Shown piece after piece: positions 4,352 to 36,500 of a stretch of DNA of 41,212 nucleotides (the stretch's first letter is position 1; every line of letters begins with the position of its first letter). A program made the translations under genes and the position numbers. The stretch is from Candidatus Omnitrophota bacterium. Lineage in GTDB: Bacteria; Omnitrophota; Gorgyraeia; Tantalellales; Tantalellaceae. The notes beneath the pieces were generated by a model. It was given only the letters and a program-made list of their open reading frames with translations, ran no database searches and had not been told where the DNA came from. The stretch is taken from assembly GCA_015231405.1 (NCBI GenBank), contig JADGBR010000001.1, positions 449,762 through 490,973 of the forward strand. The letters are read 5' to 3'.

Positions 4352-4925
4352 TGTCACGGCCTTTTAGACATTTGACGAATAATTTCCTGCCCCTGAAAAG
4401 CCTTACAGCAACAACCGATTTAGTGCAACCTATAACACGGGCGGCGTCCTCATACGAAAGTTCCTGGATGACGCAAAGAGTTATTACCTCCCTGAACTCG
4501 GGCGGCATGGAAAGAAGGACCGATTGTATCGATTCCTCGATCTCAGCGTTATTCATGTAGTCGGAGGCATCGGTGCCGTCTTTTGTCAGAATATCGCTAA
4601 GCGTGAATTCCGAATTGTCCGACAATTTGGAGTCAAATGACACTTTCCTGACATTTTTCGCTTTTTTAAACTCGTTCTTAGCCAAATTCCTGGCGATGGC
4701 GTAGACCCATGACGAAAAAGAGCCGGTCGGCATATACTTGTCAATGTTAGTATACACCTTGACGAAAGTTTCCTGAGTGAGCTCTTCCGCCATCGTCCTA
4801 TTATTTGTCATGCGGTATAAATAATTCAAGATCGTCCTTTTGTACGCTTTGTATAATTCGTCAAAAGCCCCGGCATTACCGTTTTTGAACGAATTTATAA
4901 GAACAAGATCTTTTTCCTGACGCAT
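4344..4925 (-). CDS. ECF-family RNA polymerase sigma factor
   Basis: This 193-residue protein starts at ATG 4925; an in-frame TTG at 4964 would add 13 residues but has no ribosome site. Sigma region 2 spans about 20-90, with the core helices around AEELTQETFVKVY and the region-2.4-like helix SFSSWVYAIARNLAKNEFKK. Sigma region 4 spans about 131-185, with PPEFREVITL and the helix-turn-helix YEDAARVIGCTKSVVAVRLFRGR. Both DNA-contact regions look intact and the length is normal for the family. It directs RNA polymerase to a small regulon. The stop codon overlaps the start of the next gene (ATGGATAA, 8 bases), so the two are co-translated, and that neighbour is the likely anti-sigma regulator. Targets may include the flanking secreted-protein genes (inference). 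Confidence 0.95.
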   Translation of the reverse strand: MRQEKDLVLINSFKNGNAGAFDELYKAYKRTILNYLYRMTNNRTMAEELTQETFVKVYTNIDKYMPTGSFSSWVYAIARNLAKNEFKKAKNVRKVSFDSKLSDNSEFTLSDILTKDGTDASDYMNNAEIEESIQSVLLSMPPEFREVITLCVIQELSYEDAARVIGCTKSVVAVRLFRGRKLFVKCLKGRDNG

Positions 4926-4951
4926 AATAAGTGTCTGTAACAGTCCCGTAT

Positions 4952-4957
4952 AGTATA
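4952..4957 (-). promoter_or_regulatory. Possible -10 box (TATACT) ahead of the sigma-factor gene
   Basis: TATACT lies on the minus strand 26 bases before ATG 4925. No good -35 hexamer stands at 16-18 bases. Transcription from here would give a short leader and would exclude the TTG start at 4964. Weak evidence. Confidence 0.3.
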
Positions 4958-5045
4958 ACAACAAAAGGAGATAAAAATTACAGTTTCGGTTATTTTAGTT
5001 AGAAATCAGGCTTTTGTCGAGGAGAAATTCAGAAGAAGTTCAGGA

Positions 5046-5092: not shown

Positions 5093-6418
5093 TTACTTGC
5101 CGGTTGACTCAGCGTATGCCGCGGGGATCTTGTCGTCCTTGAAACTGTCGTTGGATACGGCTATCTGTTTTGCTTTCTGAAGGTTTATTATGACTTTAAA
5201 GGAATTATCGCTTGTGTACCTGAGGTATATGACTGAAGACTCGGTTGAGAATTTTTTGCAGAGAACTGAAAGATTACCATAAAAAGACCTTAACTGGGCC
5301 TCTATCTTGACCAGTTTTGGGTCGGTATTCTTCCTTACCTGGTCGTACGCCTTTATGATCTCATTCTTTTGTTCGTCGTCGTTAAAAGGATTTTCCCCGT
5401 TATTCTTTACGGCGTCCATGATATTCTCTACCAGACTTATATCGTTCGAGATATTTGGAAGGACTACCGAAGCTTTCAGGGAGCTTTTCATTTTATAGAG
5501 TAATTTTTCATAATCCAGCTTGATCCCTGAGACAAGATCTTTCCCGGCTTCCAGCTCGTCTAAAAGCCCAGAGATTTTCTCTATGTTCCTGGTGTTCCGC
5601 TTGTCTTTAAAGCCGGATATAAATTCTCTGACGCGTTCGGGGTCCAGGTATGTAGGCTTCGACGCGGCAGGCTCTTCTTTTCTAGCGTCCGTGTCGGACT
5701 TATCTTTCGAATAAGTTACAATAATGGGTTCTTTGCCGTTAAGTTCTTTGGCGTCTTCGGTAACGACTAGGTTGGGCGTCATGTTGTCAAAGGTGTATTT
5801 GTTCCTTGTCGATGGCGGCAGGTCATTCAAAATATCAGCGGGAATAGCATCGGAGGTCATATTGCGATCTTTTGCGTCGTATATACCGTCGCCGTTCAGA
5901 TCTTCTTGAGAGTCTATTACGCCGTCGTGCTTAATATCATAGCTGGTCCGGTCAGGCGTCAAAGCGTTCACTGTATCGATCATATCCGGGATAACGCTCG
6001 AACTACTCGATATGGTCACAGAGCCATCCGCGTTCAATTGCATTTCAGTATTATCATCTATCTTGGCTTTGACGCTGACTATGTTGCCGGCGTCGTTCCT
6101 TGTGTATTCAAAATTTATCTTCTCGCCGTTATCAAGTACCTGTGATGAAGGGAATTCATTCCCCGATCCGTCAGGAACGTTTTCATCTTTTTTCTTTTTG
6201 CGTGCCCAGTATTCCCTGGCGAATTTTTCTGCAAGATTGGCTTTTTCAGAGGCATTGCGGTTTAGAATAGCTTCACCTGAATTCTGGCCAATTCTTTTCA
6301 TAACATCGGTGTATTCGGCAGGGTTGCGTGTACCATTATCGTCAGCGAAGACGTTTACAGGAATGGTTAACTGTAAAACGAATATTAAATTAATAGAAAA
6401 TTTGAACAGATTGAACAT
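5093..6418 (-). CDS. Secreted protein with two EF-hand/dockerin-like loops
   Basis: This 441-residue protein starts at ATG 6418, preceded by GGGGAG (6434-6429) at 10-base spacing. An upstream in-frame TTG (6442) would add eight residues but lacks a ribosome site and spoils the signal peptide. Residues 1-25 form a signal peptide (hydrophobic core, VFA just before DDNG). A Lys-rich linker and beta-hairpin-like stretches follow. Two calcium-loop motifs occur in tandem, D161-x-K-x-D-G to E172 and D173-x-N-x-D-G to D184, and the C-terminal half is mostly helical with few distinctive motifs. The loops resemble dockerin or EF-hand repeats, usually calcium-binding and involved in adhesion or protein docking. 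The gene lies 165 bases after the giant gene and before the sigma gene. Function is not known beyond probable export. Confidence 0.8.
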   Translation of the reverse strand: MFNLFKFSINLIFVLQLTIPVNVFADDNGTRNPAEYTDVMKRIGQNSGEAILNRNASEKANLAEKFAREYWARKKKKDENVPDGSGNEFPSSQVLDNGEKINFEYTRNDAGNIVSVKAKIDDNTEMQLNADGSVTISSSSSVIPDMIDTVNALTPDRTSYDIKHDGVIDSQEDLNGDGIYDAKDRNMTSDAIPADILNDLPPSTRNKYTFDNMTPNLVVTEDAKELNGKEPIIVTYSKDKSDTDARKEEPAASKPTYLDPERVREFISGFKDKRNTRNIEKISGLLDELEAGKDLVSGIKLDYEKLLYKMKSSLKASVVLPNISNDISLVENIMDAVKNNGENPFNDDEQKNEIIKAYDQVRKNTDPKLVKIEAQLRSFYGNLSVLCKKFSTESSVIYLRYTSDNSFKVIINLQKAKQIAVSNDSFKDDKIPAAYAESTGK

Positions 6419-6489
6419 TATCTTATTTCTCCCCGAGCGCAATTGATTAAAAAAGTATTTTTTTCAGAAAATAAAAGTACTGACGATTT

Positions 6490-6583: not shown

Positions 6584-9500
6584 TTATACTGAGGTTTCGG
6601 CTTCGGTAACTGAGTCAATGTATTCTCGTATCTCAGCGCCGATATTGCGGAGAGAAATGGGCATGAAATTAAGTACCGTAGAAATTATATCCGTGAATGT
6701 TTTTCCAAGAACATTTGCAAGCGTCATCTCAAAATTTTTCATCTTGTCATCGGATAGGCCCACGGGAACGAATATCGGACGCTTTGTCCCTTTATCCTTC
6801 GACGCGTTTATCACACGTTCTTTCAGGCTCTTTATGCAAGTGTTAAGTGCGAGAGTCGGTAGTTTGCGGCATATCTCACTGTAATTTTTGTTCGTTCCCA
6901 TGAGATCTTTGTCGAGCATGACGAAGTTACACATTGATTCGGGAGTATTTAAATGTTTACTCAAATATTTCGTTATACCATCCTGCATTCCTGTAGACCC
7001 GAGGAACGTTATAGAAGACGGGTCATTTCGGGTTGGCCTTTCCTTTTTATCGATCTTATGCAGAACGTTCACTAGAGTATCTTCGGCGTCTTTGATGATC
7101 TGGTTCAGATTCCGGTTTTCGGAGCCTGTCAAATGGTACGCTACTCCCATCTCTTTGAGCCTGGATATATGTTTTGTCGTCTCGACGATAACGACAAGAT
7201 TCAGTCCTTTGGGGCCTGTTTTCTGATCAGCGAGTTTTTGAAGCGACGGCAGCATCTGGTCTAGATCGATCCCCTGCGAGTATCTTCCGTCAAGAATAAC
7301 GAGTTGCGGGCCAGTTTTGCTCTTTTTTGCCTGGGCGGCAGAGAGGACTTGATCAAAAGACGCTATAACGCTGTCCTCGAGGGCGCTTGTGGCAAGGATA
7401 TCTTCGACGGTATTAAGCTGATCGACCGTAAGCTTGCTCACTGAGTCGATAGCTTTTTCCACCGATCGTTGAGATGCTTCGGTCATTTCTTTTCCGTTTC
7501 TGGCATCACTCATTCTTTCTTTTGAGAAATCTTTCCTTACCTGTTGTTCCATTTCCCAATCAGACATGGTCGAGTATAATTTCTCTTCGGTATTACCGGC
7601 CACCTTGGAATAGCCGTCGAATAACCTATCTACCATGTTCTCCCAGCGTGTCTCTTTTGGAAGAGCGCTCGAGATTATGGTGAGAGCGAGCGGAAGCTCG
7701 CCGGCGTTCAACCTGGATATGGCGGCTCTATCCAAACCGGATAAATGGGGGTATTTCCGGACGAAAGAAATGATCCGCGCTTCTTTTCTTGCCCTGGCGA
7801 CGATACCAGGGAGTTCTTTTAGGAGAGTGTCGGCATTACCGTTAAAATCGACAAGTATCCCGGTTTCCCCGCTTGTTAAAGAATTAAGTTCTTTCTCGCC
7901 TGAACTCTTATCCCCGTATGCCCTGAACTCTATATCGTCATATAATTTCATAAGGTCAGATGTCTGGATATAAGACAGCCCAACAACGCCGATTATCGGT
8001 TTTTGGGTTGAAGCCTTAACCCCAGGATGTATCAATGAGTTATACGCGTTTTGAAGTTTGCCGTTATTGAGTCCAGGAGCGTTCGCGGGTTTTTTAGCGT
8101 AATTGCCCTGGAAGAGCTTTTCAGAGAGCTCTCTCGCTTTCCTGGAACCTATTACTGGGCTCGCGATCTGAAAGAAAAGATATTCGCTTAAAAGACCGAC
8201 GTCACCGCCGGACATTAGGGTGTCGATCATTTCTCTTGAAAGACCTATTGTATCGACCGGAAGGAACGCGCGGAGATGTTCCCTAAGCCTGTCGTCCTCG
8301 GATGATATGATGTGAGAAGCCGCGGAATTGAATCCCAAGAGCCATCCTGACGGTTCATCCGCGTCAGGCCCGGGTAGAACAACGGCGCCGAACTCGCGGA
8401 TACCGGTGCGGCGCTTGGATATTTTTCTGATCGCTATTTCCAGACGCTTGAGATCGGCGTCTTCGATAGCGAGGCGTGAACGGTTAGCCCTGATACGCTC
8501 TAATAGATTTTTGCAGATCCCCATATTATTGACGCCTGGGCGTAAAGGATACAGATTGCCGGAAAGCCTGGCCTGGATCTCTATCATTCGACCGAGTTCC
8601 GCGGGATGGCCTTTTGCCGGACGGATAAGGGCGTTCTCGTTATCCCTGTCGAATTTGGAGTCTTTTCTGGCTTTGGCGACGGCAGCGCTGATCTTTTTGA
8701 GTAATTTATGCCTGTCGGTTTCTTTTTCCAGGAGGACGAGGTAGTCCGTCGAATCATCACGGAATAGTCTTTCCCTGCGCTCATTCTCCGTGCGTCCCGT
8801 GACCGCTACGAATTTAATGTCCGGATACAGTATATCGAGATTAGCGGGGATATCGGCCCTATCTCCCGTAATACCTATTACGGCTACCGGCCTTAACGGC
8901 TTCGCTCTTTCTTCAAGCGTTTTATTTATGACCTTTTCGAATGTCTCCTGCAGTTTGCCTTTTTTGTACCCTTTCAAGAACCCTGACCGAGAAGTATAAT
9001 TAGTTCCGCGGAACATTTGTTCGGCAATGGCCCTGGCCCTAACAGCTCCGAGGACGGGGCTAGCTGCCTGGACGAACAAATATTCCCTGAGGACGTTGGC
9101 GTTATCGCCGATCTCGTCAAGTATCTCTGACGATAGGCCTATGGTTCTCGGCGGCAAGGTATCGTTAAGTCCCGCTTCGAGGATATCCGCCGAGGCGGCT
9201 TGGGACCTTTTGGACGAGTTGAAGCCTACAAGCCAGCTTTCGGGAACACGGGTCCCGGTCGAAGTAATAACGACAGCGTTAAATTCCACTACTTTAATTG
9301 TGTTGTTGCCTATCTTGTTGAGTTGACCGAGGAGCTCTTTCTTCTCTTCGGACGTAATATCAAGCTCGTCGTATTCTCTTTCCAAAATATCCATGATCTG
9401 CCTGGAAACGACCTTACGCTTAATGCCGGAGCGCAATTTTGGCAGAACATTCCCGTACATTTCCAATTGCTTCGTTATGCCGTTCCGGAGCCTAACGGCG

Positions 9501-12500
9501 TTCCCTTTGACCTCGGTGACAGCTTTTTCCTTTATTCCGGCTATCCGCTGCTTGACCCATCTACCCGAAATAAAGTCCAAAAACCTGTTAAAATTATCCC
9601 TGACGGATCTTAATCTGATGAACCTGTCCAAGAATCTTTCCCTTTTTGTCCATGAAAGGGCTCTGGGTTTACGGTTCTCAAAATGTATGGCTTTTATCGA
9701 GGAAATGGTCTTTTGCTCGCATTGCGCGGCAATATTGCTTTCACGCGTGTTTTTACTTTTGTATAATTCAAACAACGATAAGTGCGCTTCCAGGAACCGT
9801 CCCCATAATTTGATCGCTTTCCCGAGCAGTTTTTCCCTGGCGGCGAGGGAAAGTCCCGGCAATTCGGAATGTTCATAATATGCTCTGGCAAGTAACATTC
9901 GAGCGTCAGGAGTAAGGCTGGGATCCTCGATAGCCATATTTTTAAGGCAAATTTCAGCTTTATCAAGCCGGCGTTCACCTATGTAATAGCGCATTTGAAG
10001 GAGCCACTTCTGTGCCTTGTCAAACTGGCTAAAAGCGGGAACTGATTCAATGATCTCAATGGTTGTGCGATCATCATCAGCTCGTTTAAGGGCCCCGCCA
10101 TAAAGTGCCTTGAGTTCAAAATTTAATAGATCGAATGCCGAAAGAACGGATGGGTTGAAATATGAGAAATCATCTTTGGCGAACTGTTCCCTCAATTCCG
10201 ATAAACGGTTCGCAGTATCGTAAATATAGCCCTTTAGTTTATAGCTCTTGGTCGGTTGATATCGTCGAAGTTTTGGTATGATATTCTTGATCAAAACTGC
10301 GGTTTCTGAACTGATCGGTGTTTTAAGGGAGTTTACATGGTCAAGAATTAAATTGATGATTTCGATCTGGCGGTTAAGCATATCGTTGTTGATATCATCC
10401 CAAACAGCGTCCTCCCTGACGAAACGTCCTAAATTGGTTTCTATAAGCGATATGAGTGACTTCATGACATCGGTGTCTGATAGATCGGAATAAAGGATGT
10501 CTTTCAGTTTCTGAGCGGCTAAAGTGAAATATCTTTCCTTAAGCGACTCTTCCCTGACGTTGCGGAACTTATCCTCGTATAAGCCGGCTATTCGTCTTAG
10601 GATCTTGAGCTTTTCCTTTTTACGGTCATTTTCTTCGGCTTTATCGAACGGGAATAAGGATAGTATCCCGACGATTTTGGTTTCAAGACCGACAATATCA
10701 TCAATATTTACTGTTTTTAGGGCCTGATGATCCGCTATCATTTCGTCAATGCGTATTTTAGCGATAGGCCATGATCTGTCGGCGTCATCGCTTGTCAGAT
10801 AACGCCTGTCGAGGAGGTATTGTATGAGTTTCTTCGCGGTGGATCTGTCGCCTTTAGCCGAAAGGTCGGATGCGCGCTTTATTACGCGGGCCGTGAAGAT
10901 ATCTTTGATGTCGCGTATCGCTTTTTTTGATAGAACAGCCGGGATCTTATCCGGTGAGAAAAGTTCGTTTAGAAGCTTAGAAACGGAGTTTATCCTGCCT
11001 GACCGGATGGCGGTCCTGATGTCGCGTCTCGCGGAACTCGGGATAATGATCCCTCTGGAGCGGAGGTGATCAAATAGTTTATTGAGGCCGCTTATGTCGG
11101 CGTTAAGTTCATTGCTGGTCATGAAACCGGAAGAGATCTCCATAAGATGAAAGATGATCAGGCTCTTGGGAAAAGTCCCGGGTCGGGAAAGCGTCATATC
11201 GGATATGTCGCGAATGAGATAGTTTTTGTAAAGCTCGGTCTTATCGATGTCTTGACGCCCGAACCATGCGTTCAGCATATCGATCAAAGCCTTATGCCGT
11301 TGATCAGAGGACTTAGACATTTTTCGAAGATAACTATCCTGAAGCTTTTTCCGCTTAAGTCCTTCGGGATCTTTCGCGTCGTTAAGGTCCCGGTATTCCG
11401 CCGCGAAATCGTCGGCGTAAAAAGTATCAATCAGAAGATTTATCGGGATCTCAAATGAGTCCATTTCGGACCTTATCTCGTCGACCCTTTTCTTGATCGC
11501 TTCATCTTTTTGATCAATTTTAGACAAAGCTCCGTTAGCTTTTTCGAAATCATTGTCTTTTACGTCCTTTGAAGCATCCTTGAGCAATTTATCTTCGGAT
11601 ATTTTAGCCTTCGGAGAATCGCCGAGTTTCTCCAACTCCTTAACGGCGCTCTTGTCACCGCTGTTAAATCGTACAGCTTTTTGATAAACAGCCTTAACTT
11701 TATTGTGATTGTCCTGGGCTCGTTCCCAGTTTTCTAATTCATCGCCCGTCCGCGAGGTTTCAGTACCGCTTCTTTCGGAGAAGTACGCCAGATCTTCCTT
11801 ATATAAAGCCGCTATACGGGAATACAACCCTGAAATGGCGGATAACAGTTCTTTGCCCTTTTTGCCTTCCCTGTCGAACCGGCTGAGTTCTTTAAAATTT
11901 CTATTTAATACTTCCATATCTTTTTCCAATAAACCCGCATTCCTCGAGATAAGGCCATCACGGTATTCTGCGACAAGGCTATCCTTGCGAGCGCCTCTCG
12001 GAGCCATTTTAATGGCGGCATCCAGTCTTTCATATTTGCGGGCCTTATCGTTATTTGCTGATTTATGCGGCCGAAAGATACGGTAGATCGCAAGTTTAAA
12101 TAAAGACCATCCGGATCCCTCGTCATCGAGTTTCATTTCCGTATATTTTTTCATGAAAATTTCGTTATCCTTGAGTGAGGGGTCAAGGGACAAAGCTTTT
12201 TCATAGAAGTATACAGAGGAATGGTTCCTGAATTTAGCATGGTAAGCGTCGCCTAAACGAACGAAATGCTGAGATGTGCCTGCCTCTATAGCGTTTGCCC
12301 TTTTCAAGATACGTATTATTTTGAGCCAGCAGGTTAGGCTGGAGTAGCCTTTTACGACCGTCCTGAGATAAAGCTCATTATTATCAAGCGACTTGGAACT
12401 ATCTTCATCGGCGGCTTTTTCAAAATAATGGCGTAAGAGGTACGGATTGGACGCGTTTATCAATCCCAACAGCAGATTAGAATACATTTTCAGCTGCGTA

Positions 12501-15500
12501 TTTTCGGAATCCGACATGGCGGTAAGCATTCCCCTTGAAAAATAATTACGAAACATACCGATAAGAGGATGTGAAGGGATCTCTCCTCTTCTTATCTTTT
12601 GGATCAATTCCTTATCTGTGCTTATCTTATTGAAGATCACCTTAAGAAGATCGGCCTTAAGGCTATCGGATAAATCATTGCCTTCAAGTTTAGCCTTCAG
12701 CGTGGTTATGGAAAATTCATCATTTCCCGATACAATATCAAAAACACGGTCTATGACGTCTTTCCACGGACCGGAAAGCTCAGCCGGGAGAAGAGAGACC
12801 ATCGCGTCAAATGTTTTGAGTATATCTTCTCTCATGGAAATAGCTTTGATCCCGGATTTCGTATCTTTCTGGGCTTGTTCCAGCATTTCAAAGGTGACCT
12901 TGAAGAGTTGGATGAGATTGTCGTTCTGTCCGTCTTTCCCGGCAGACATGACCATTGAGTTGATGATAGCGGCCTCGCCGTACAATCTTCTTAGTAAAGA
13001 TAGTTTCTCGGCCGAAAAGCTAAGTATCGTGAATATTTCATTAAAGCGGCCTTTTTCTTCTCCTTTTAAAAGGATCGCTGCCCTAATGAAATGCGCACGC
13101 AAAATAGTGCGCTGAGCAGTAAGCGTGAGATCGTTGAAATCTTTGGAGCTATTTCTCTCGATGATAAGTTGAGCATGCCTCATCGAATCTTTTAGGCTGT
13201 CTTTATCTCCTTTAGCCAGATATTTCTGGGCATAGATCAGGTCGATCGCGTCGCGTAAAGTGTAGTTATTACGTTCGGGCGCGTCCAACAATGCTTCTAT
13301 AGCTTCCAGATATTTAACGGCGTTATCGGGCGGCATCGTATCGGCTGTCGAAAGAAGTTGACCCGATACCGCACGGTCCGACAAAAGACGCTTCGCGTCT
13401 TTTGCGTTAGCCGCGTCATACTCACGCCTTTTACGCAATTCATCGCGCAACGCCGATGTCGCGAGTCCCTCGGCGATATACCAGGGCCTGTTTTTGTAAC
13501 TATCGTCTTTGGTATCACCGCCCATTTCGTTCATCTTTTTATCGCTTTCTCCTATCTTGATCTCAAGTTCGGAAATCCTTGCTCTATTGCCTATCACGAA
13601 AGCGACTTTATCCGAATATGAAGCCGCGGCATCGGCGGTCTTGATCATATCGTCGTTTTCGGAAGGGAGGATCTTTTCCTTTATAGCAGCCAGTATCTCG
13701 CGGGCCCTGGAAACCTTTCCCAACGACATATATATTTCATAGAGCTGCTTAGAGTAAGAACACATGGGGCCGTCCAGGGATTGATCGGCCTTGAGCGCGG
13801 CTTCAATTGATTCGGCAAGGACCTCTCCGGACAGGGCGGGGTCATCAGCGTGTCTCGCGCCGAGAGAAACACGTTCTTTAATAGCTGACAATCTTCCTTT
13901 TAGGGCTGATGCGTTCTTCGCGTCCTTTACCGACGCTTTTGAGTAAAGGTCTAAAGCTGATCTCAAATTATCAAGGGCTGCGTCCCTTTCCCCCTTTATG
14001 ATATTGGCACGGGCTTTTTTTAGATCAGAATCCGCGCGAGATATAAGAACGGATGAGAGTATCTGGTCCAGCCCCTCAGGCGGTGCTCTCCCTAGCTTCT
14101 TCGCGGTCTTATTGAGTTCATTGACGGCCTGTTCGATAATACTGGCTTTATCGTTGATCTCAGAGTCGTTTTTAAGTATCTGGAGAACAGCCAGGTCCAG
14201 GTCTATCTTTTCTTTTTCAATTCTAAGGATATCGTCAGCCTTTGTGACCCTCGACCTTTTCTGGAAATATATGAACATCAGTGTCCCTACGGAAATACCC
14301 ATTATTGAACCGGATATTAAAGCGGTTATGCCGATACCGGCTGTTAAAAGAGCTATTCCCAGCGGCGCGGCTACGGATACGCCGATGATAACGGACGATC
14401 TTGCGACTGCCGATATTATCCACCGGGTTCGCCCGGATGAGTAATAGCGCTTCTCCTTGCGGGACAATTCCGTTAATTCATCATCTTTAAGCTTTTTTAA
14501 ACGCGAATTTATAAGGGCGATCGATCTCGGGAATATGGCTATGATCTCCTCGAACAATTTCTTTTTACGCTCGCGTTCAACTGTTTTTCTTTTTCCGGTT
14601 AAAATATCCTTAAGTTTCGGCTGCGCGTCGATCTTGCTCAATTTGTCTTTTAGAACGGCGATAAATTTATCCTCTCGCGTCTTATTTGTCTCAGAATAAC
14701 TCTTCAAGAACTCCCGGAGCTTGATAGCTTTTTCGTAGCTCTTCTCTTCATCGTGATTCTCTATCTGGATAATAAGCTGACGGATGGACTCCGGGTCTGG
14801 CTTGCGGCCGTTCTTGTCTATTGAGCGCAGAAGCAGATCAACGTAAGGATAAGCAAGCCCTTTATTACCGTTGGCAAGATGTTCGTTTGCCAAATATATC
14901 GCTGTTTCGGGGCTGATACGGTCATTGTAAAGCAAATAAGCCCCAAGCATCCCTACGATAACGAGTACAGCGCCAATAAGCGCGAGATAAGGGTGAGCGG
15001 CCAGTAATGATGAATAAAAGACCGGGATCTTGTCAATTAGAGCTATAGCGCCGAGTTTAAGCGACGCGTATCCGACAAAAGCGGCTACGCTCCCTGCGAT
15101 CACTCCTAGCATTTTAGCGATAGCCCCTTTTGCGGCTACACGTCCGAACATCGGGAAAAGCGCGGCCTTTTTTAGTACCTTTACGGCTAGTTCGTCCTGT
15201 GGCCGGCCTTCGATACGGTCTAGCTCGAGAATTTTGGAAGCCGCCTGGGCAGCGCCTTCATCGGTAACGATAATGCGCAGACGCTTATCCGAAGAAGAAG
15301 CTGTATGAGTAAGGAGTATTTCTGTAAGCTCGAACCTGGCAAGCTTTCTCTCATTCTGTACCCGTTCAATGTCCTGGATCTCACGGGATAAAGCCAAAGC
15401 CGGGGCTATATATTCTTCCCATGTCATCCCGCCTTTCTCGTAGCGAGATGAAAGTCGTTCCAATTGTTTACGTTTTTTCAGGATACGGGACAATAGCTCC

Positions 15501-21500: not shown

Positions 21501-24500
21501 ATCTCTTCGTCAGTTTCTTTTTCCCTGGTCTTGGGTTCTTCGGGTTTATCATGTTTCATGTCTTTTAGATCTTCCGCGTCGGTGGATTCTTTCACGGTCT
21601 CTACTAGTGTCCTCTTTTCTTTCCCGGCATCTTTTCTCGCGGTAAAGGAAGCCATGAAAACATCGAATTTGTCGCGTTGGGAACGGTCCATCCTATGTTT
21701 GATGCGGGCGAGGTCTGTCAGGACTTCTTCCTCGCTTCCCATATCGGAAGCGGTCTTTTTCGTAAGAGCCTGGAATTTTGTGATGAGATAGTTTATCCTT
21801 TCAATTTCGGCATCTTTGATGAGATCATCGGTCTCAGCGCCGGCGGGTTCAGAGCGGAGAGCGTCGATCCTTGACTGGTTATCCTTCAAGAGTCTGTCGC
21901 AAAGGTATATTGACAGGTCATTGACGTCATCAAAAAAGAAAGGCTTGCCTTCCTTTTTGAACTTGGCCCCGTCTCCGGCCAGTACAAGTATACTTTTATC
22001 CGGTTCTGTCCCAGCGGCTAATTTAGCTCTCAAATGTTCTAGAGAGTTCTTTTGACCATCAGTGCCGGAAGACATATACAAGAGGTATGTTCTAGTGAAA
22101 ATATCGATCGCTTTATCCTTTTTATCGTTCTGATAAAGGTATTCGATAAGTTTGATAGCCTCCTCAAGAGGCAGTTTCTTCTTATGTGGGCTGTCGGCTT
22201 TCTTTATCAAAGCGTTGAGAACACGGTCGGATTTGGGGTCCAGCCCCAGCTCGCGGTATTTAGCGATAAGTTTAACCGCGGCGTCCACAGAATTAGGCGC
22301 TTCTTTGACAGCGGTGAGTTCTTCACGCAATATATCATGGCCTCTGAAGAAAATATTAGTTTTTACCCGCAATGGGCCCTGGAGGAAAGAAGCAACAGGC
22401 TTGATCTTCCCGTAGAAGGGCTTAATGAAGTTAAATAACGTAAAACCGAACATAAGAGTATAGAGGCCATACCATGATGAATAAAGGGCTGAAAAACCGG
22501 AACCCGCAACCAATGTCGGTAGAGTAGCGGTAAATCCCCATGAAAAAACAGTCGCGGGCACAATTGAGGTAAAGAACAGTGAAAGAAGAGATAAGCCGTA
22601 ATACATCAATGACATCGGATAATACATGAGCGCCATGCCTAATGGAGGGCAGAAGAAAGTTACAACGGCTATAACAGCGGTGCCCGCTACCATGCCGATG
22701 ATCTGTACCTTTAACTTGTCCCATAGGGACTTCTGTGCCTCTTTTTCTTGCCCGGGCATTTCCGGCATTCCCGGTATTTTTGGCATTTTTTCGGGTTTCT
22801 TTTTACCCGATTCTTTTTTTGCCTTAGCTGCATCTTCCTTGCTTTTACTGAGCGTTTTATAGATCTGAAAGAAATCGATCTCCTCTCCGTTCAACTTTAT
22901 GTCTACATTTCTGTTATCATATGGTGGAAGGAGCATTCTCCTCTTTATATTCTTTACTAGCTCGCAGATACGCATGGCTTCGTCATAATTCTTCTCTTCC
23001 TCAAGCACTTTGACCAGGGCGGCCATGGCTTTCGCTTTTAGGATATCATTTCCGGCAAGAGCTTCGGTATCATCGGCACCTTTGAGCATTTCTCTCGCTT
23101 TTTCCTTATTTCCTCTTATCTGATGGATTATTCCTAGCGCTTTTTTCGCTATATCGTCTTCAGGATTAAGGGCGTGAGACATAGATAGATAATTAAAAGC
23201 GTAATTTCTAATTTTTAAGGCTAAGTCTTTATTGTGCGCGCGCGGTTTTTCGGAAATATCTTCTGATATGGCGAATAAAATCCGGCCTATTTCTGTAAAA
23301 GCTCTCTGATAATGAGCGTTAAAACCTTTTTGTTTAAAAGCTTTAAGTTTTTCGGGATTATTTTTAACAAGCGCGAGTTCGGCATGGTATTTTGATAGGT
23401 AGAGGAGATCCAGGGCGATCTTAATGATGTTTTGCGCTACGGGGTCGGCATCTGCAATTTCCCGAAAAGGAGCGACCGCGAGAGGCCTGTCAGGGTCATA
23501 ATTCCTCTTGAATAATAGCAGCGAATTTTCCTTTTCTTCCGGGCTCAGTTCCTCGCCTGAAAGTGTCTGGGCTATATCAAAAGCCGATTCCGCGTCCGTA
23601 AGAGTGCCTGATAGAACTGAGTTAGGAAGCCTTTCCTTAATAACATCATCGGGTTTAGGACCAGGCTCGATCTTTTTCTGACGGGTAATTGTCCTCCATA
23701 AGTTAGGCCATCTGTTCTCATCTTTTTTGAAACCTTCCCATTTTTCGAGAAGATTGGCTCCTGCTTTCCCTTTTAAGGCGTATAAGGCGAGTTTAAAATA
23801 TTGAAATCTTGGACTGACATTCGAGGACAAAGAGTCTAATACAGGATCGATCCACGGAGAAAGCGCTTTAAGTTTACTGTTGGTAAGCCATGATTTGCAT
23901 TTTGTGATATTTTCTTCGCTCAAGCTTATCCAATTGAACGGGTTCACTGGATTTTCCTGCCATAAGAACCCAGGGGCTTTGTAGCTGACATAAACAATTC
24001 CCTTTGCCTTGGATAAAGTCCAAAACCACCAGTTTCGCAATTTTCCTATCACGACGGGACGAAAAGCATCGGGCCTAAATGAAAAAATGATGTCAACAGA
24101 CTTGGTAAGGAAAGATGAAAAACGTCCTTTTTTCATCGTATTTATGAAATTCATCAAACTCAAGTATATTCCGTTCCTCTGGCGCAGTTTCATATCTCTC
24201 TTAATGTCTGTATCGTATTTGTTTAATGAGCTTTCAAGGCTGTCTTTGCCCCGGTGATAAAGGTTGTTCATCCAGTCACGGGCATTTATGATCCAGTTTT
24301 TCCAATATTCCCTGCTCCGCCATCCTGTCATTTTAAGCCAGTTATCATCTTTTTCGCTGATCGCTCCTGATCCTTTCGTATCCTTAAGCTGATCTCGCCT
24401 TGCGAAAAAGTTCCTGGTATTCTGTACTCTGTCGTCCCATCTTTTCTGCTTGTTCAATCGTCTATCCTGCCATTCTTTCATTTTCTTCTTGAACCATGTT

Positions 24501-27500
24501 CTCCATGATGCAGCGCCTTCCTCCGGTCCGCCTAAAGGTTTTCCGGTATCGTAAGTAAGTGGCATCTTTTCGATGTATTCCACTCCGACCCGGTTGTTTT
24601 CCGAGATAGCGGCAAGGTCGATCACCGGCTTTTCTTTTGGAAGTTTAGCGGACCTCCATACACCCTGCGCGTCAATAACGAAGTCCTCTTCAGAAAGTTC
24701 GGCTTTTTGGCAGTCTTTATCCGTGCCCGTAAGATACATGTTAGCCTGAATGACCTGTTTCCTGGCGTCAGGGTATACATGTTTACCCAGTGACCGGATA
24801 AAAGTCTTGTCTTTATCTCTCGCTACAAGAAAATAATATTCACCGCACTGTTTAATGAATACTTTATCGCTGGTACCGGACAAAAGTTCGAGGGTCCTGT
24901 CCAGCTTATCGAGCGTAGCAACCGTTCCGGGTTTCTCCATGGACCTGATGACTTCAACGAATTGACCTGCCGAATCGCTGTCATACATTCTTAAACCTTC
25001 GAATTTCCATTTCACTGCTTTACCTGACGCGTCGAATTCGCTTTCTGTTACTTTTTCAAAACTGACGAATCTTGGTGTTTTTCTGAGGTCCGGCGTCCGG
25101 GCTGTCGCCGCGCGGAGTTGTTCCTTGAGGTCCCTCATAATATCTTCCTCACGGTCATTGACGACCGAAGAGACAGTTATGGCGACTATACCTTCCGAAC
25201 CCTCCCCGCCTCCGGCGGGCCCGCCGCCATCCAACAAACTATTTTCCATGGCAAGGGCGATAGACGCGTTGTCCAGCTTATCAACGTCTATCGTGACAAA
25301 ACTCGAGTCTCCGACAGGCGCGTTCCTGAGCATGTCTCTCCGTCTTTTTAGATCAGCCTTTCCTTTCGATTCCTTTCCTGAAATGTCAGCGCGAGTCTCT
25401 CTTTGAAGGTCGGTTGCGTTATCTTTCGTAACCTGCTTATCAGAAACGGTAAGGGCGATACCATCTCCGGTTATATCTCTCGCGAATTCATCCAGGTCCA
25501 ACGATACCGTATATCTCTGGTCTTCGGGTTTAGCCGTGACCATGACCTGCGCGGGAGCGATCTCAGGGATGTATGAGCCGCGAATCTCGAGGCCTTCGGT
25601 ATTTGCGGTACGTTTTGCCTGAATAACGGAGTCGGGTTGTTCCCGAGGCGCCCACTTCTTTTCGTCTTTAAGGTTTTCCAGCTCCTGCCGCTCTACTTTT
25701 ATATCGTTCTGGGCGAATTTATCCGGTATTTTGTTGATCGATTCGTCGACCGCTTCACCGACGCGTTCGATATAACGCCGTACGCCTTTATCGTCGTATT
25801 TTTCAGCATGGGCGTCCCTGTCCTGAAAACGCTTTTTCGCAATGCCTATCGCTATCTCATCAAGGCTTTCGTAGGATATATCGACAGTGAGTTTAAGCTT
25901 ATTGTCGGGTGTTCTTTTAGTTGGGTCGTTGCTTTCCTTTATGATTATGGATTTGAGCTGCTCCAGCCCCTCTTCGTTCAGTTTTTGAACGGCCTGTTCG
26001 AAAGCTCCGATAAGTCTTACTTCGATCTTTCCGTTCTTGAGACCTTCGATCGCGAAAGATGGGCCGTAACCTTCCGCGTTCATGAAGTACATTTCACCGG
26101 CAATTATCCTGCCTGTCCTCTCCTTAATAATATTTCTGTATCCGACATGCAGGGTTTCACCGATCATTACAGTAAAGCAGTTATTGAATTCTTTCATTAT
26201 GTCGTCTGAAACTGTTTTTCCCTCGCTTAGATCAATAAGAGCTGTTTTAATTTCGTTCTCCAGATCGGCGAGTTTGAACTGCTGCCCATTGCGGGTAAGC
26301 TCGGCGGCTCTTCTTTTTACAATAAGATCGGCCAATAAAGGTAAAGCCTCGCCGTTTGAAAGCATAGCGGTGCCAGCCGTCTCTTCGGATGCGGTTTTTT
26401 TCATGGAACCCCCCGGATGGACCATTTCTTCTCCATCGAGGGATAATTTGCCAGCCTTATTGGTAGAGACATGATAAGCAACGCTGCCGTTCTTGACGGT
26501 TTTAGCTTCACCTATCCCTAGCGATATACTCCCGATAGAAGTGACGACCTTTGTCATGATCTTTACGGCGATAAGAGACCTTTGGCTGAGGAGATCTCCC
26601 ACAATATCGCTCTGTGATATATTACAGGTGTATTCCTTCCCAGTGGCTTTTTCCATATCGATATGGAACCTTTCAAATATTGTTCCGATACATTCAGTAA
26701 GGTCGAGTTTTCCTGTAGTTTTATCAACTTTATTAGGGGTGAAATACAGGTCAAGTATCTGGTTAATCCATTTAAAGGCGATCTGGGTGGCCTTTTGTGG
26801 ATCCTTCTTTAGGTCATCGGACATCTTTTTGATAAGCGCTCTAGCCTTATTGAGGGCAACCTGGCGTTCGCGTCCGATCTCTGTTTTATCAACTTTTTCT
26901 TTGAAGTTCCTTTTCTCAAAATCTACGCGTATTTGTCCCGTAAGGTTCTTGAAATAATTCTGATAATCGTTCCAGATATCCATGATAGCCGAAGGTTCGC
27001 CCTTTTTGCTGTAGAGGTTCCCGATAGCGGAGCCGCTTTCCGCGTCAATAGTAATTCCGAGCGTTTTTTCAAAGTCTGCCAGCACGGCGACACCCGTAGT
27101 GACAGGCTGCCCGAGGGCAAAAGACCGGAGGTTCGCTTCAACGGCTTCACGGGTATATTCTTTATTGCCCTTATTGGCATTGATGATAGAGTTCACGAAG
27201 AGTCCGAATATGTCGGGGTTGCCTAAAATAGTTTTCAACTTGCCTATATCGAAGTTGATATTATAATGCGCGTCACCGTCAAAGATCACGTCCTCTAATT
27301 CGGTGAGGTGGTTGCGTTTCCTGATAATTTCCTTGTATTTAGCGTCGGCTATCTTAAGCTCTTCCGGTGAAAGTATCCTTTCGTTGTAAGTGGCTGAATA
27401 TAATCTTCTTATCATCCGCATGTATTTGGATTTTTCATCGAGAGAAAATGTGACATCTATATAACCCACGTCGCCCATACGCCGGTTACGTCCATATTTC

Positions 27501-30500
27501 TGAAGCATAGCTTGCAGGCTGCCGTCGGGCGAGAGATCAACGAGGAAAAGTCCGTCCCAGTATTTATGCTTGATGATACGCCATACTTCGCTTGCCTCGT
27601 TCGCTCCTGAGCGCCTAAGATGTTCTTTAACGAGGTCCTGTTTCAGGGCGCGCTTAGCCGCGTCGATCTCGTAATAAAGACCGTCTTCGCCTGCGAGTAG
27701 TTCTCTTAAGGTCGAGACTTGCGAAGTTATCCCGGATAAGTTATCGACGGCGCCGGTAAGATCTTTGTTGTATTCAGCACCGCGTTTCATCAAAGATTCC
27801 TCGACCTTCTTATAGGCCGCGTCGATCTTATCCTTATCGGTTAGCCCTTTAAATTCGGATAAGAGAGGAAGGGCTTTTTCTTTGTTATTTCTGAACCATT
27901 CCAGGAGGAAGGCGTTGTCGTATTCCTCGCAGTAATGGATGTTGCGGCGGAGCAGCTTGAGGAGGGACTTCGTGCTGTTCTTGACGATGAAGCCTGCGTT
28001 TTCCTTGAGTCGAACGTTCGTCGCGCGGCCCAGCTTGGCGTCCGCAAGAGTTATAGTCGCGTGTTCTCCTGCCTGTTCGACAAGTTGATCTTCTTTTCTC
28101 CCCTCTTCCTCGAAGACATTTATATCTATCTTTTTACCGGATCTTTCCTCGAGGGAATACTCTTTTATCATATTCTGTATGATAGGCTCAAACTCCTTGG
28201 CCTGGCGAATATCGTCAAAATACACGATCATGCTTGCTCCAGGAGACTTTATGAGGATATCCCTTATTTGGAGAAGAGCTTTTTTCTGTTGGAGCTTGTT
28301 ATTGCTGAATGTTACCTGTGGCCTCGCGCCGCCTTTAACGGTGAGTGACGGCGCCATTTTGATAACGCCTATGGAAGGCTGACCATCTTTATTTCTGAAT
28401 AAACGCTGCATAAGCTCCGCTATGACCGCTACGGAGCCCGAGGCTCCGCCGAATGAATGCGTATATGAAAGAACGTTGCTGAAATCGAGATGTTCAGTGC
28501 TTTTATTGTTCGGGCGTGCGTCAAGTCCGGCTTTATGTATCAGCCTCGCTCCCGATCTAAGCTGATGTTTAAGTTCATATATAGTGTGAAAATCGTCCTT
28601 TCTCTGGGTGCCCTGCTCCCTTCCCGTGGATTCCTCGAGAAGAACAACTTCGAGTTTAACTTCTTCAAGGACAAAACCGGATATACCTTCCTCCCTCCGA
28701 ACGATGAAATATTTCCCGCCTATATACATGGTTAGGTCCTCGTCGCTTTTTGCATTGGTGAAGAAATCATCGTTTATAATGGCAACGAACTGTCCGTTGC
28801 ATTTGATCTTGAAAGACTTGCCGTCCTCCATCTGCTCTATATCAAAATCTGTTGTGACTTCCTTTTTTTTTGTTTCAAGATCCAAAAGACGCCCGTCATT
28901 ACTTACATAAACAGCGATTTTATCCGTCATAGGAGGCACGAATTTCAGGATATAATCAATGCCGAGCCTGTCGATATACATGGCTTTTACGCATTGCATG
29001 AACCGTTCGGGATCCGGCATTTCGGTTTCGGCCATGAACTCGGGTATTTCACCGTCGGAGGCGAGTTTACTCAGTTTACTCCTGATCTCGTTCATTGTAT
29101 CTGAGACGATCTTCTTGGTCTCATCGTTGGCATAAGCCTGCTTAGTCGTATCGTCACGGGTATACCCGGTCCTCCCTCCGGTCTCTTTGCCGGTCCAGTC
29201 CATCCTTTCAAGGATTATCTTTTTGTCCTGGTCAAGGGTAACTCTAAATTTCTTGCCGTTAACGATTATTGTTTTCCCAGCGCTATATCCTAATTCGTTC
29301 TTCTCCAATAATGTCTGATGGTCCAGAATAATGGTTGCGTTGTCATCGGTTAAGACTTTTAGCGCCCAATTTCTATCCGCTGTTTTCACTAGATCCAGCT
29401 TTTCTGTGTCTTCTTTGTTTAATCCGAGCATTTCTCTGGCTTTTGTCTTCATCTCCTCTATGGTAAGGTCATCGTCGCCGTCAAGCCTAAGGATATTCTC
29501 CTCAAAAAGGGCATATATGTCCTTCATGCCTCCTTTTTCGAAGATCCCTTCGGCCGCTTTCATCGAAATATAGTACGGGAGATATTCTCGTAATGACAAT
29601 TTGCTGTCCTGGGCGGCCATTATGAAATCGGCGAGGTATGGCGCGACGTCGCATTCATCCATGGTAACGTGGGATTTAGCTAGAAGCCTGAACCATTCGT
29701 CGCTTTCCGGACGCGTATTATCCTTTACTGCGTCAAGGGTTATGAAACTGAGCGCTCCGTACGACATGATCACAACGTCATAACCTTCTTCTTCATCGGG
29801 GTTATCCTTAAGCTGGGCGTCACTAAGTTTTTCACAGACGCCTTTTAGTTCCTTGTCGGTGTCTGTCTGATAAGCGACTTTGTATCCCATCATTTCATAA
29901 ACAAAATGGGTTTCGCGGTAATCCCTGCGGGTATAATAATCGTTGGTTACGAGGTGTATCCCTTTTAGCCCCCTTGCCCTGTTTATCATGTTAGCAAGCG
30001 GAAAACAGTCTGTCTTTCCGGCTCCGGTGAAAAGGTCCGCGTAACCACCGTCCGCGGCGTGGAGGCCGGTGAGGACCTGGGTATTTGTCGCCTGGTACTC
30101 CTTAGCGAGGACCATAGATGTCTGGTAGTACGCCACAAATTCCCATCTAAGCTCTTCGTTCCTGAAAGCGTCAGTCGAGACCTTCATTTTGGCCATAAGC
30201 TCTGTTTTCTTCTCGCGTATGATCTTTACCAGCTCTCTTCCGAGAAAGACTTCTTGTTTTGCTTCATTGACCAACCCCGGGTCGATGCTGTTAAAGCGGT
30301 TCTCAAAAAGATTTGTTGTGGTTCCGTCTTTATCCATTATTAAATATTTTCCGATTATCTTTGCGAGCTCTTCGATCCTGTTCTTGTTATCATCTTTGCT
30401 GTCGTCGGGTATAACCTGGATAATGTTCTGATCGATGAACATCTTGTTCGTTATTCCTAGGCTTCGCATTATATCGGCCACAAATACGGCATCGATCTTT

Positions 30501-33500: not shown

Positions 33501-36500
33501 ATCTGTTGTAAACGGGCAATGACCCTGCTTACATAAAACTCTATGTCCCTGGGCTTGAACCGGGTTTCAGGAACAAAACTGCCGTGTTTGGAACTCGGGT
33601 ACCAGCTTGTTTCTGTCCCGGACAATTCATGAAGCAGAGATTCCATTGATCCTTTGCCGGTGCCGGTGCCTTTACTCGAGGCTATTAAAGGGCCTTTTCG
33701 TGCCGCAACGCCAAGAGTGCTATCGTCGCGGCTAAGAGATTCTGATAGCTCATGCCGCAGGGTATCAAAATTCCATTTCTCGCTCTCATCTATAAAAATG
33801 GACCTTTCATCGGCTCCGAATAAAACAGTAAGGGCTCCTTCCGCTCTCGCTGTGGTATTGAGATCTTTCATCTGTTTGGCGTTGACATAAAACACCTGCT
33901 GGGCAACACCGCCGTAAGTCACCGTAAATACCCTATTGTCGTCCATGTAGAGTTTATGAACGACGGTTATCAGGTCGCTTAGCTTTTCAGGGTCGTCCAG
34001 CGTCGAGGTATGGAATCCGTTTATCCTGATGACTTCGTCAAGCTGTTCCCTGAATTTATCGTCTTTCATCAGTTTTCCTATATCAGAATCAGCGGCAAAC
34101 AAGCTTTCCCCGGTATCTATGGCTTTTTGTATGATCTGGGCGGTGATAGCGTCAAGCTGGCTGATGAGAATATCGGTGTCTTTAACGTGCGCCAGAGATT
34201 TTCTTAGCTTCTGCAAACGTTTTATGTTAGCCAATGCGGGATTCGCTACCATCTTTTCGGCTATCTTTATCAGTCTCGCTCCCCTCTTGCTTATCATTTC
34301 TCTGACTTCCAGGATGGTCGCGCTCTCTGAATACTTTATTTCCATAAGGTCTGCCTGTTGTTGGACCTTAACCCATTGATCCTCAATTGCCTGTTTTATC
34401 TCTTTGACCGTCATGGCATCCGTGATCTCGGCCCCCCTCGCCCGCGCTTCATTAATGGCTTTTTCACGTTCAGCTTTGATCTGTTCGCGTATGAGAGCCG
34501 GAGTTCCTTTACTAGCTGCCGCTGAGACACCTTCGTTAATGGCTTCAGCTATAGCTTTATCGTTTTCGAACTGGATCTTTGCGCGTATGGCTGCGATGTC
34601 ATCGCTGTGGTTAATAGATATGCCATATTTAGTCTGGATGAAACTTATTGCCTTAGCGATAAGATCGGTGGATGCTTCTTTGTATTTTAAAAGCGATTCA
34701 AGGGCGATGAGGTTCATTTCATTCTTTTCGAGAAGTTCCTTGGCTTCTGCCAGGTCGAGTTCGCGCTGCAATGCCTTCTTCAAAGCGTTGATCTGGCTAT
34801 TAAGTCTCACCTTATTTGAATCCCTGACGGAGGCCTGTAGGGTGTTCTCTAAAGCGATCTCAGCTGCCAGAGCTTTTTCATATAACGAGATGAGCTCGTT
34901 CATGGCATTCTTGTCAAGGGTTGATGCGACAAGGCTTTCGTATGTAAGATCGCCGGCCAACCCTTTGGAAATCTTGATAGAACCGATCCTGTCGCTTAAT
35001 TCCGCTGTTCTATTTATGGCGGCCCATAAGGCTGATGGGGTCGTTGTTTCCATAGCTCGGAGCTTATCCGCGTTGCCGGAATAAGATCGGACTAATTGAA
35101 CAAAATTCACCGCTGATGCGTTCCTGTTATCGGAGACAGTTGACCTGGTATTTACGATAAATTCGTTAAGATCGGCGCAGATACCGGATGTTTCGCTTTC
35201 GGAAAGGATAATGCCGTTTTTCGATGAGCTTTTGATCCAAGTTATCACTTTTTGTATACCTTCACACTGTTTCGTTACGATCGTCGACTGGAACATGTAA
35301 CGGTCTCTCAGCGCAATATATTCGGCATAAAGCCTCCGGAATGTTTCTTCATCCATTGAGGAAGTGTTAGCGGGCGCCAAACGATTTTCAAGCTCGCGAA
35401 GTTTATCCTTCATCGTATCTAAGGCCAGAATGTCGGATCTCAATATGGTTTCGGCGCTCGTAACATATTCCGCCCTCATATTGACAAGGTATTCTTCCAA
35501 CGCCTCCTTAAAAAGACTTTCAAGTTTATTCTCAAAATCAACGTACGGTTTTTCATCTTTATAGGAGGTGGCTTTGGTGCGCCTGAGTGCTTCTTTAATA
35601 ACGCGCAGATAGTTCATGATGTTATTGAGAGCCTTCCGCCTTTCCTCACGTGTAGATGAAGGATCGGCTAAAATCCGCTTTTGCTTTTCTATCTCGATCA
35701 GGTGGCTTGCTGCCCTAATGCTAGATTCGGCAAGAATCTTACCGCTTGATACCTTATTACTGAGATCGTTGATCTGTTTCGAAGCTGTGGAGGCATCCTT
35801 GTCGGACTGTAGCACATCGCTTAATTCGGCCCTGATCTCAATAGGCAAACTGTCGATATCGTTAATGTCGATACCCAATATTTCAGCTATCTCGGTCAGC
35901 CTGGCCTTGTCGGAACTTACTTTATTTGAAAGTCCCCGGGCTTTTTCGTTTTCACCGGCTATAGTTTCAGTTATGGATGTCAATTCGCCCATGAGGCCAA
36001 CGAGGGTTGAATAAACTATGCCCTGAGTCTTACTCCCGGGTGATTTGTATTCAGTTCCGCTGATCCCGGGACCGGCCGATGTAACACCTTTTAAAAGGTT
36101 ATCGCTGAACTGTTTATCAAGTTTCTCGGCATTTTTAAGGATTTCCTGTAATTTAGCGGTATCGGACCGTGCCGAAGCAAGCTCCTTCAGTAACTGCTTC
36201 ATAATTAGGATCCTTGCATCGTACAGCTCTTTTTGAGCGTCGGTCATAGCTTTGATATAACCTGAGATATTGAGCGCTGACTCTATATCGGATACAACCC
36301 CGGTTATTCCTGTTAATTTTCCAATATCCGAAAACTCCTGTTCAAAGCCCTTAAGCTCAGAAAGTACTGACTGTAGGGTTTTAAATGCAGCGATCTTCGC
36401 CTCTAAGCCCGAGAAACCGCTACGTATGATCCCCATGGCTCTCTGGATACGTTGCTTGATCTGTTTTTCGGCCATTTTCCGATTAAAAAGAAAAGCTGAG

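Follow-up and report, generated by a model that had tools for sequence, protein, structure and literature searches.

A giant open reading frame (ORF) of 11,542 amino acids (aa) from a Candidatus Omnitrophota bacterium contains a segment that, by its profile matches, is a divergent SecA-type core; the resemblance exceeds chance, and the segment is not a SecA equivalog. The ORF lies in a stretch of 41,212 nucleotides (the window) that closes a 491-kb contig (G000:C11) in a draft genome of 3.66 Mb. SecA is usually a stand-alone cytoplasmic motor; in contrast, this domain is embedded in more than 11,500 aa. The reading that we favour, with a probability of roughly 0.4, is that an exported, effector-like giant carries here a SecA-type motor, which would hydrolyse ATP to move polypeptide and would work in the cytosol of a target cell. 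A SecA core with apparently constrained catalytic residues gives the enigmatic, exported-looking giants of several families a clear energised domain, in a phylum whose members are mostly uncultured and in part predatory, and turns the function of giant proteins into testable questions: whether they hydrolyse ATP, on which side of the membrane, and what is pulled.

Motifs and profile matches of the SecA-like core

The motifs of SecA occur in SecA order in one single open frame (Table 1). The Q-motif, Walker A, Walker B and GRxxR are intact, and the proposal of the first-pass annotation that the catalytic residues are kept was borne out by the motif table, Pfam, a profile search of the PDB, and hhalign with its controls. 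Because the contig ends together with the window, the start of the ORF is not assembled; therefore the location in the middle of the protein described by that annotation and all residue numbers are relative to a partial protein.

Pfam SecA_DEAD (PF07517) matched the first nucleotide-binding lobe (NBD1) with 40.1 bits (cut-off 24.6, E 3.3e-10), and P-loop_SecA remained below its threshold on the second one, NBD2 (18.4 bits vs 27). In a phmmer search against the PDB, SecA entries ranked first (E 4.5e-5 onwards) and a single myosin appeared as an outlier at 0.007, and when a profile of three sequences (the window protein and two orthologs) was used, SecA and SecA2 were alone below E 0.01 (best 4.6e-9). 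Likewise, only SecA and SecA2 models were retrieved from NCBIfam, with at most 44 bits against cut-offs of 725-1493; the housekeeping SecA equivalog models TIGR00963 and NF009538, with cut-offs of 800 and 814, were not reached by these 44 bits. The comparison by hhalign with 30 housekeeping Omnitrophota SecAs gave four colinear segments in SecA order and recovered both nucleotide-binding lobes: NBD1 with P 91% and E 9.5e-7, and NBD2 through the block from TGR to GRATN (residues 4188-4413) with P 96% and E 1.6e-9. The piece on the PPXD side was colinear and weak; neither this piece nor the GRxxR block was significant alone. Among the controls (the reversed alignment, 12 other segments of the giant and 20 column shuffles) the best values were P 1.9% and E 0.026. 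None of 200 residue shuffles reproduced the motif order; the pattern used had been composed after the motifs were seen.

It is very improbable that the domain is unrelated to SecA, that is, a chance series of motifs in a coiled-coil-rich protein, given that the profile searches and their controls contradict it. This explanation draws on the long AlphaFold model, which is unusable: for residues 3640-4760, the structure prediction proposed by the first-pass annotation was obtained from three sequences with pLDDT 39 and pTM 0.26, and a separate model of NBD2 reached pLDDT 50. Both are of low confidence because too few sequences could be aligned, and neither was taken as evidence; nonetheless, in Foldseek the NBD2 model draws mostly RecA-like helicase lobes, none of them at E<=0.001.

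Table 1. Coordinates of the giant ORF and related features (window positions unless a contig is named).
Feature	Residues	Position	Strand	Basis or remark
Giant ORF, 11,542 aa		6584..41212	-	5' end missing (contig stops at window edge); colinear with the Ca. Tantalella remota ORF
SecA-like core (NBD1, PPXD-like region with inserts, NBD2)	~3690-4600	27413..30145	-	profile comparisons
NBD1-like lobe (Q-motif, TGAGKT, HLVTNDY, DECD)	~3696-3870	29603..30127	-	Pfam SecA_DEAD; PDB SecA
Q-motif TQVLTG	3711	30065-30082	-	
Walker A TGAGKT	3729	30011-30028	-	
Motif Ia HLVTNDY	3753	29936-29956	-	
Walker B DECD	3852	29648-29659	-	
PPXD-like region and extra beta-rich inserts	~3871-4195	28628..29602	-	weak colinear hhalign match to SecA PPXD
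NBD2-like lobe (TGR..FH, GGASGS, GRATN, GRNRRMGD)	~4196-4600	27413..28627	-	hhalign; motif table
TGR motif TGREQGTQRKDDFH	4196	28586-28627	-	
GGASGS	4255	28433-28450	-	
LGRATN	4394	28016-28033	-	
Insert inside NBD2	~4412-4550	27563..27979	-	spacing; helical in low-confidence model
GRNRRMGD	4574	27470-27493	-	
Two hydrophobic putative membrane segments	6171-6189, 6206-6224	22541..22702	-	Kyte-Doolittle
Two hydrophobic pairs, putative membrane segments	8696-8761, 8931-8971	14300..15127	-	Kyte-Doolittle
C-terminal domain	11109-11542	6587..7888	-	common to other SecA-like giants of the family
~470-aa N-terminal domain, examples		G000:C93:47221-48705; G010:C68:4217-5719 (L070); L122-L141		

Compared with housekeeping SecA (TIGR00963 / NF009538; Pfam PF07517, PF01043, PF21090), the giant domain has Q, Walker A and B, Ia, TGR..H, an SGT-like motif, RxT[DN] and GRxxR in the same order, with a weakly matching PPXD-like piece between the lobes; a separate, ordinary SecA is encoded elsewhere in the genome. 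Within NBD1 the spacing is nearly identical: Q and Walker A are 18 residues apart in both, Walker A and Ia 24 (23 in SecA), and Ia and Walker B 99 (82 in SecA). The PPXD region, in contrast, has grown, with 344 residues from Walker B to TGR where SecA has 113-219, and so has NBD2, with 139 against 118 from SGS to GRATN and 180 against 78 from GRATN to GRxxR. Thus, the expansion by inserts that had been noted before holds for these two regions and is small in NBD1. The altered motif positions noted with it are also present: in class A, defined below, the D of motif V is replaced by N (GRATN for GRGTD), and GGASG stands for GMTGT. SecA2 (TIGR03714 and relatives) has the same core and gave weaker matches.

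Relatives of the domain and their phylogeny

SecA-like domains were found in 17 giant ORFs of Omnitrophota, which span 1,648-11,542 aa, several of them ending at contig ends, and fall in three classes (A, B and C). The ortholog of the window giant is a colinear 9,603-aa ORF of Candidatus Tantalella remota (JAVCCB010000015.1), and a fragment of an ortholog is present in the Omnitrophota metagenome-assembled genome CSMAG_1412. When the window protein is compared with the T. remota ortholog, conservation is highest in the SecA-like region, at 637 bits (34% over 1,216 aa) against 179 bits for the runner-up block. Class C occurs in six species of the same family, including species where class A was not found, and has the C-terminal domain in common with class A; in one case, G010 against G006, the N-terminal 770 aa are 49% identical. 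From these shared parts and this distribution, class C probably represents the gene of class A in a form whose motor has diverged strongly. Class B has two members in this genome and six elsewhere in the phylum. Pfam SecA_PP_bind was not found in class A and is significant in class B, where it exceeds its cut-off in the C93, C20 and G023 giants. One of the class B genes is represented by overlapping frames, G000:C20:33862-36615 with the N-terminal domain and 36420-47225 with the SecA-like part, perhaps a single giant gene broken by a frameshift or an assembly error. A match on contig C33 was removed, its translation being RecG-like.

Q, GK[TS], DExD and the RxxR arginines are retained in essentially all members of the three classes. 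Their retention across very long branches suggests selection for NTP hydrolysis. For this reason we regard a catalytically dead relic or structural filler as improbable: the low overall similarity to SecA and the changed motif positions are what such a relic would explain, but it accounts poorly for catalytic residues retained across classes and for a domain conserved more than any other part of the protein.

The phylogeny against housekeeping SecA that the first-pass annotation had suggested was built on 495 columns, with ordinary SecA of four phyla, one SecA2, an alphaproteobacterial SecA-like protein and classes A, B and C. Ordinary SecA, SecA2 and the alphaproteobacterial protein form one clade with the giant domains outside it, so that the sampled SecA2, unlike these domains, clusters with ordinary SecA; classes A plus C are separated from the remainder at 99%. 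The deep order is tentative because the branches are very long. An origin of the three classes as recent copies of the Omnitrophota housekeeping SecA was rejected from their position outside that clade, weakly in view of the same branches. The alphaproteobacterial protein, just outside ordinary SecA in the tree, is a 661-aa SecA-like 'DEAD/DEAH helicase' of a Rhodobacterales plasmid (L116:2162-4147), and its gene adjoins genes for a PqqD-family peptide chaperone and a resistance-nodulation-division (RND) adaptor.

Predicted location and possible action of the motor

By inspection, basic residues come first in the complete N-termini (ortholog, class B and class C), followed by a hydrophobic core and then a plausible site for signal peptidase, as in RPWIKAVSLIVITAFLFQQTVYGQA. 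A domain of ~470 aa follows, with invariant DxH, EG and GGxH (alignment A5), for which neither Pfam nor the PDB offered a convincing relative; we take its motif pattern to resemble that of TIKI/ChaN/EreA-type proteins. We counted 43 matches to the domain in this genome, and 76 of the 117 Omnitrophota genomes have it; the ORFs that it begins are ~500 to 35,113 aa long, many of them giants. By appearance it is a trafficking or effector module common to these proteins. A contig with the missing 5' end of the window ORF was sought among 20 copies of this domain in the genome; none was sufficiently similar to that of the ortholog, the best having 35% identity.

Membrane segments were scanned with the Kyte-Doolittle scale (19-residue windows, threshold 1.6). 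In G010, G011, G023, G289 and G300 nothing exceeds 1.6 between the signal-like segment and the SecA-like domain, and G006 and G016 have one borderline window (1.67) ahead of the domain. Given the signal-like start and, mostly, no intervening segment, the SecA-like domain of most relatives with a complete N-terminus is predicted to be extracytoplasmic, away from ATP, provided that the first segment acts as a signal peptide. In the window protein nothing exceeds 1.6 before residue 6171 (maximum 1.57 at residue 4880). The membrane anchors to which the motor was said to be fused do exist as hydrophobic segments; however, the nearest clear one begins ~1,500 residues downstream, at 6171, and SecY in this genome is ordinary. 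In class B, 9-11 putative membrane segments lie directly C-terminal of the SecA-like domain (L008:11789-13036 and relatives, alignment A8); this region gave no Pfam match in the C93 and C20 giants and no PDB or SecY match.

These topologies bear on the cis-acting export proposed by the first-pass annotation. As a cis-acting or dedicated exporter, the motor would stay in the cytoplasm of the producer and drive later parts of the giant or partner proteins through the giant's own segments or SecYEG. This is the main rival, possible though less probable than delivery, and most attractive for class B, where the motor adjoins a polytopic membrane domain in a motor-joined-to-channel layout. The homology to SecA is in line with it, and Kaur et al. 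(2021; PMC8195603) described SecA-like domains in giant secreted actinobacterial toxins and predicted that they facilitate the secretion of these toxins. Nonetheless, the relatives' signal-like starts, mostly with no prior membrane segment, predict an extracytoplasmic domain, and therefore cis export is unsupported for the window protein, whose next clear segment is so distant. Moreover, the class B membrane region gave no match in Pfam (C93 and C20 giants) or the PDB, and the genome has one Pfam SecY match, an ordinary 449-aa SecY.

For the favoured reading, a working ATPase is argued from the conservation of the catalytic residues, and a polypeptide substrate from the homology to SecA, whereas the signal-like start argues against simple residence in the cytoplasm; taken together, they point to a motor used after delivery, in the cytosol of a target cell. 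The core would be a strongly diverged, enlarged pair of RecA-like lobes separated by a PPXD-like insertion. The giant would be made with a signal-peptide-like start, exported, and probably membrane-associated; after its partial translocation the motor would reach an ATP-containing compartment, the likeliest being an attached target cell's cytosol, and there ATP-driven closure of the lobes would pull a polypeptide (a target protein or the chain of the giant itself) through a membrane. The sequence identity of the core, its intact catalytic motifs and its conservation in the orthologs are shown by the sequence comparisons; we infer ATPase activity, export, the site in a target cell and a polypeptide substrate.

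Several points weigh against this proposal. A SecA wing/scaffold domain was not found after NBD2 at the sequence level (no Pfam match; hhalign 3.5%), and coupling may be altered because of the class A changes in motif V and GMTGT. The export of the window protein is inferred from its orthologs because its own N-terminus is not assembled, and the target cell and the substrate are deduced rather than observed. In addition, the topology derives from a simple hydropathy scan with borderline segments (e.g. residues 1060-1078 of G010, 1.54), and the G033, G097, G047 and C93 giants have putative membrane segments ahead of the SecA-like domain. The altered coupling motifs, the large inserts in the PPXD region and NBD2, and the lack of a recognisable wing/scaffold domain would also suit a repurposed NTPase, a regulatory or mechanical ATPase acting on nucleic acid, the cytoskeleton or envelope remodelling and not translocating polypeptide; this we consider unlikely, since a PPXD-side piece of SecA is weakly detectable in place and class B keeps a significant SecA_PP_bind.

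A wider version of delivery is distinctly doubtful: an Omnitrophota-wide family of giants with a SecA-derived motor outside the producer cytoplasm, which would use target-cell ATP to pull the giant or its cargo in, the class B motor being combined with its own membrane domain of 9-11 segments and no detectable sequence relation to SecY.

Precedents in other phyla and one observation in Omnitrophota speak for the favoured reading. By their description, the actinobacterial toxins are similar in having a SecA-like domain within a giant, presumably secreted multidomain protein; they differ in phylum and in their partner domains, GT4, ART and MFS (PMC8195603). Zhang et al. (2012; PMC3482391) likewise described SecA-like helicase-related domains for effectors of Amoebophilus, which, again by description, share the SecA-like domain, a host-associated bacterium and lineage-specific N-terminal plus variable C-terminal domains, and which, in contrast, are aimed at a eukaryotic host. 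In the phylum itself, Seymour et al. (2023; PMC10066038) described the giant ORFs as poorly understood, many with predicted membrane helices; their main text reports the adhesion domains discoidin and laminin G and does not mention SecA, and peptides from a giant ORF of another Omnitrophota species were raised in cells attached to larger cells, the observation referred to above. The earlier statement that divergent SecA domains are reported for giant Omnitrophota proteins was not confirmed in the published, non-preprint literature searched.

Other features of the locus and the relatives

Cysteine content was dropped as a clue to location, housekeeping SecA being just as cysteine-poor. The class B genes of G097, G023 and G047 (L111, L107 and L113) are preceded by genes for proteins of ~1,035-1,220 aa with 10-13 membrane segments, whose spacing is RND-transporter-like as a pattern only.

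A PADLOC run gave nothing convincing. Near the C-terminus of the window giant, at residues ~10,692-11,090 (about 7943-9139), two tandem copies of ~300 aa are evident in the translation (GLSSEILDE...YLFVQAASPVLGA and GLSREMIDT...YLFFQIASPVIGS). Downstream of the giant ORF there is a gene for a 449-aa protein with a signal-like start (5093-6442), and beyond it, at 2870-4964, genes for an extracytoplasmic function (ECF)-type sigma factor and a FecR-domain protein. Upstream of the SecA-like domain, the motif RHELSE is found at residue 2486 of the window giant (33740-33757), RHEVVE in G006, and RHEIGH at residue 822 of the C93 giant (L008). These are possible metallopeptidase-like sites; the regions around the motif in the window giant and G006 are related (E 1.6e-6), and the link to C93 consists of the motif only.

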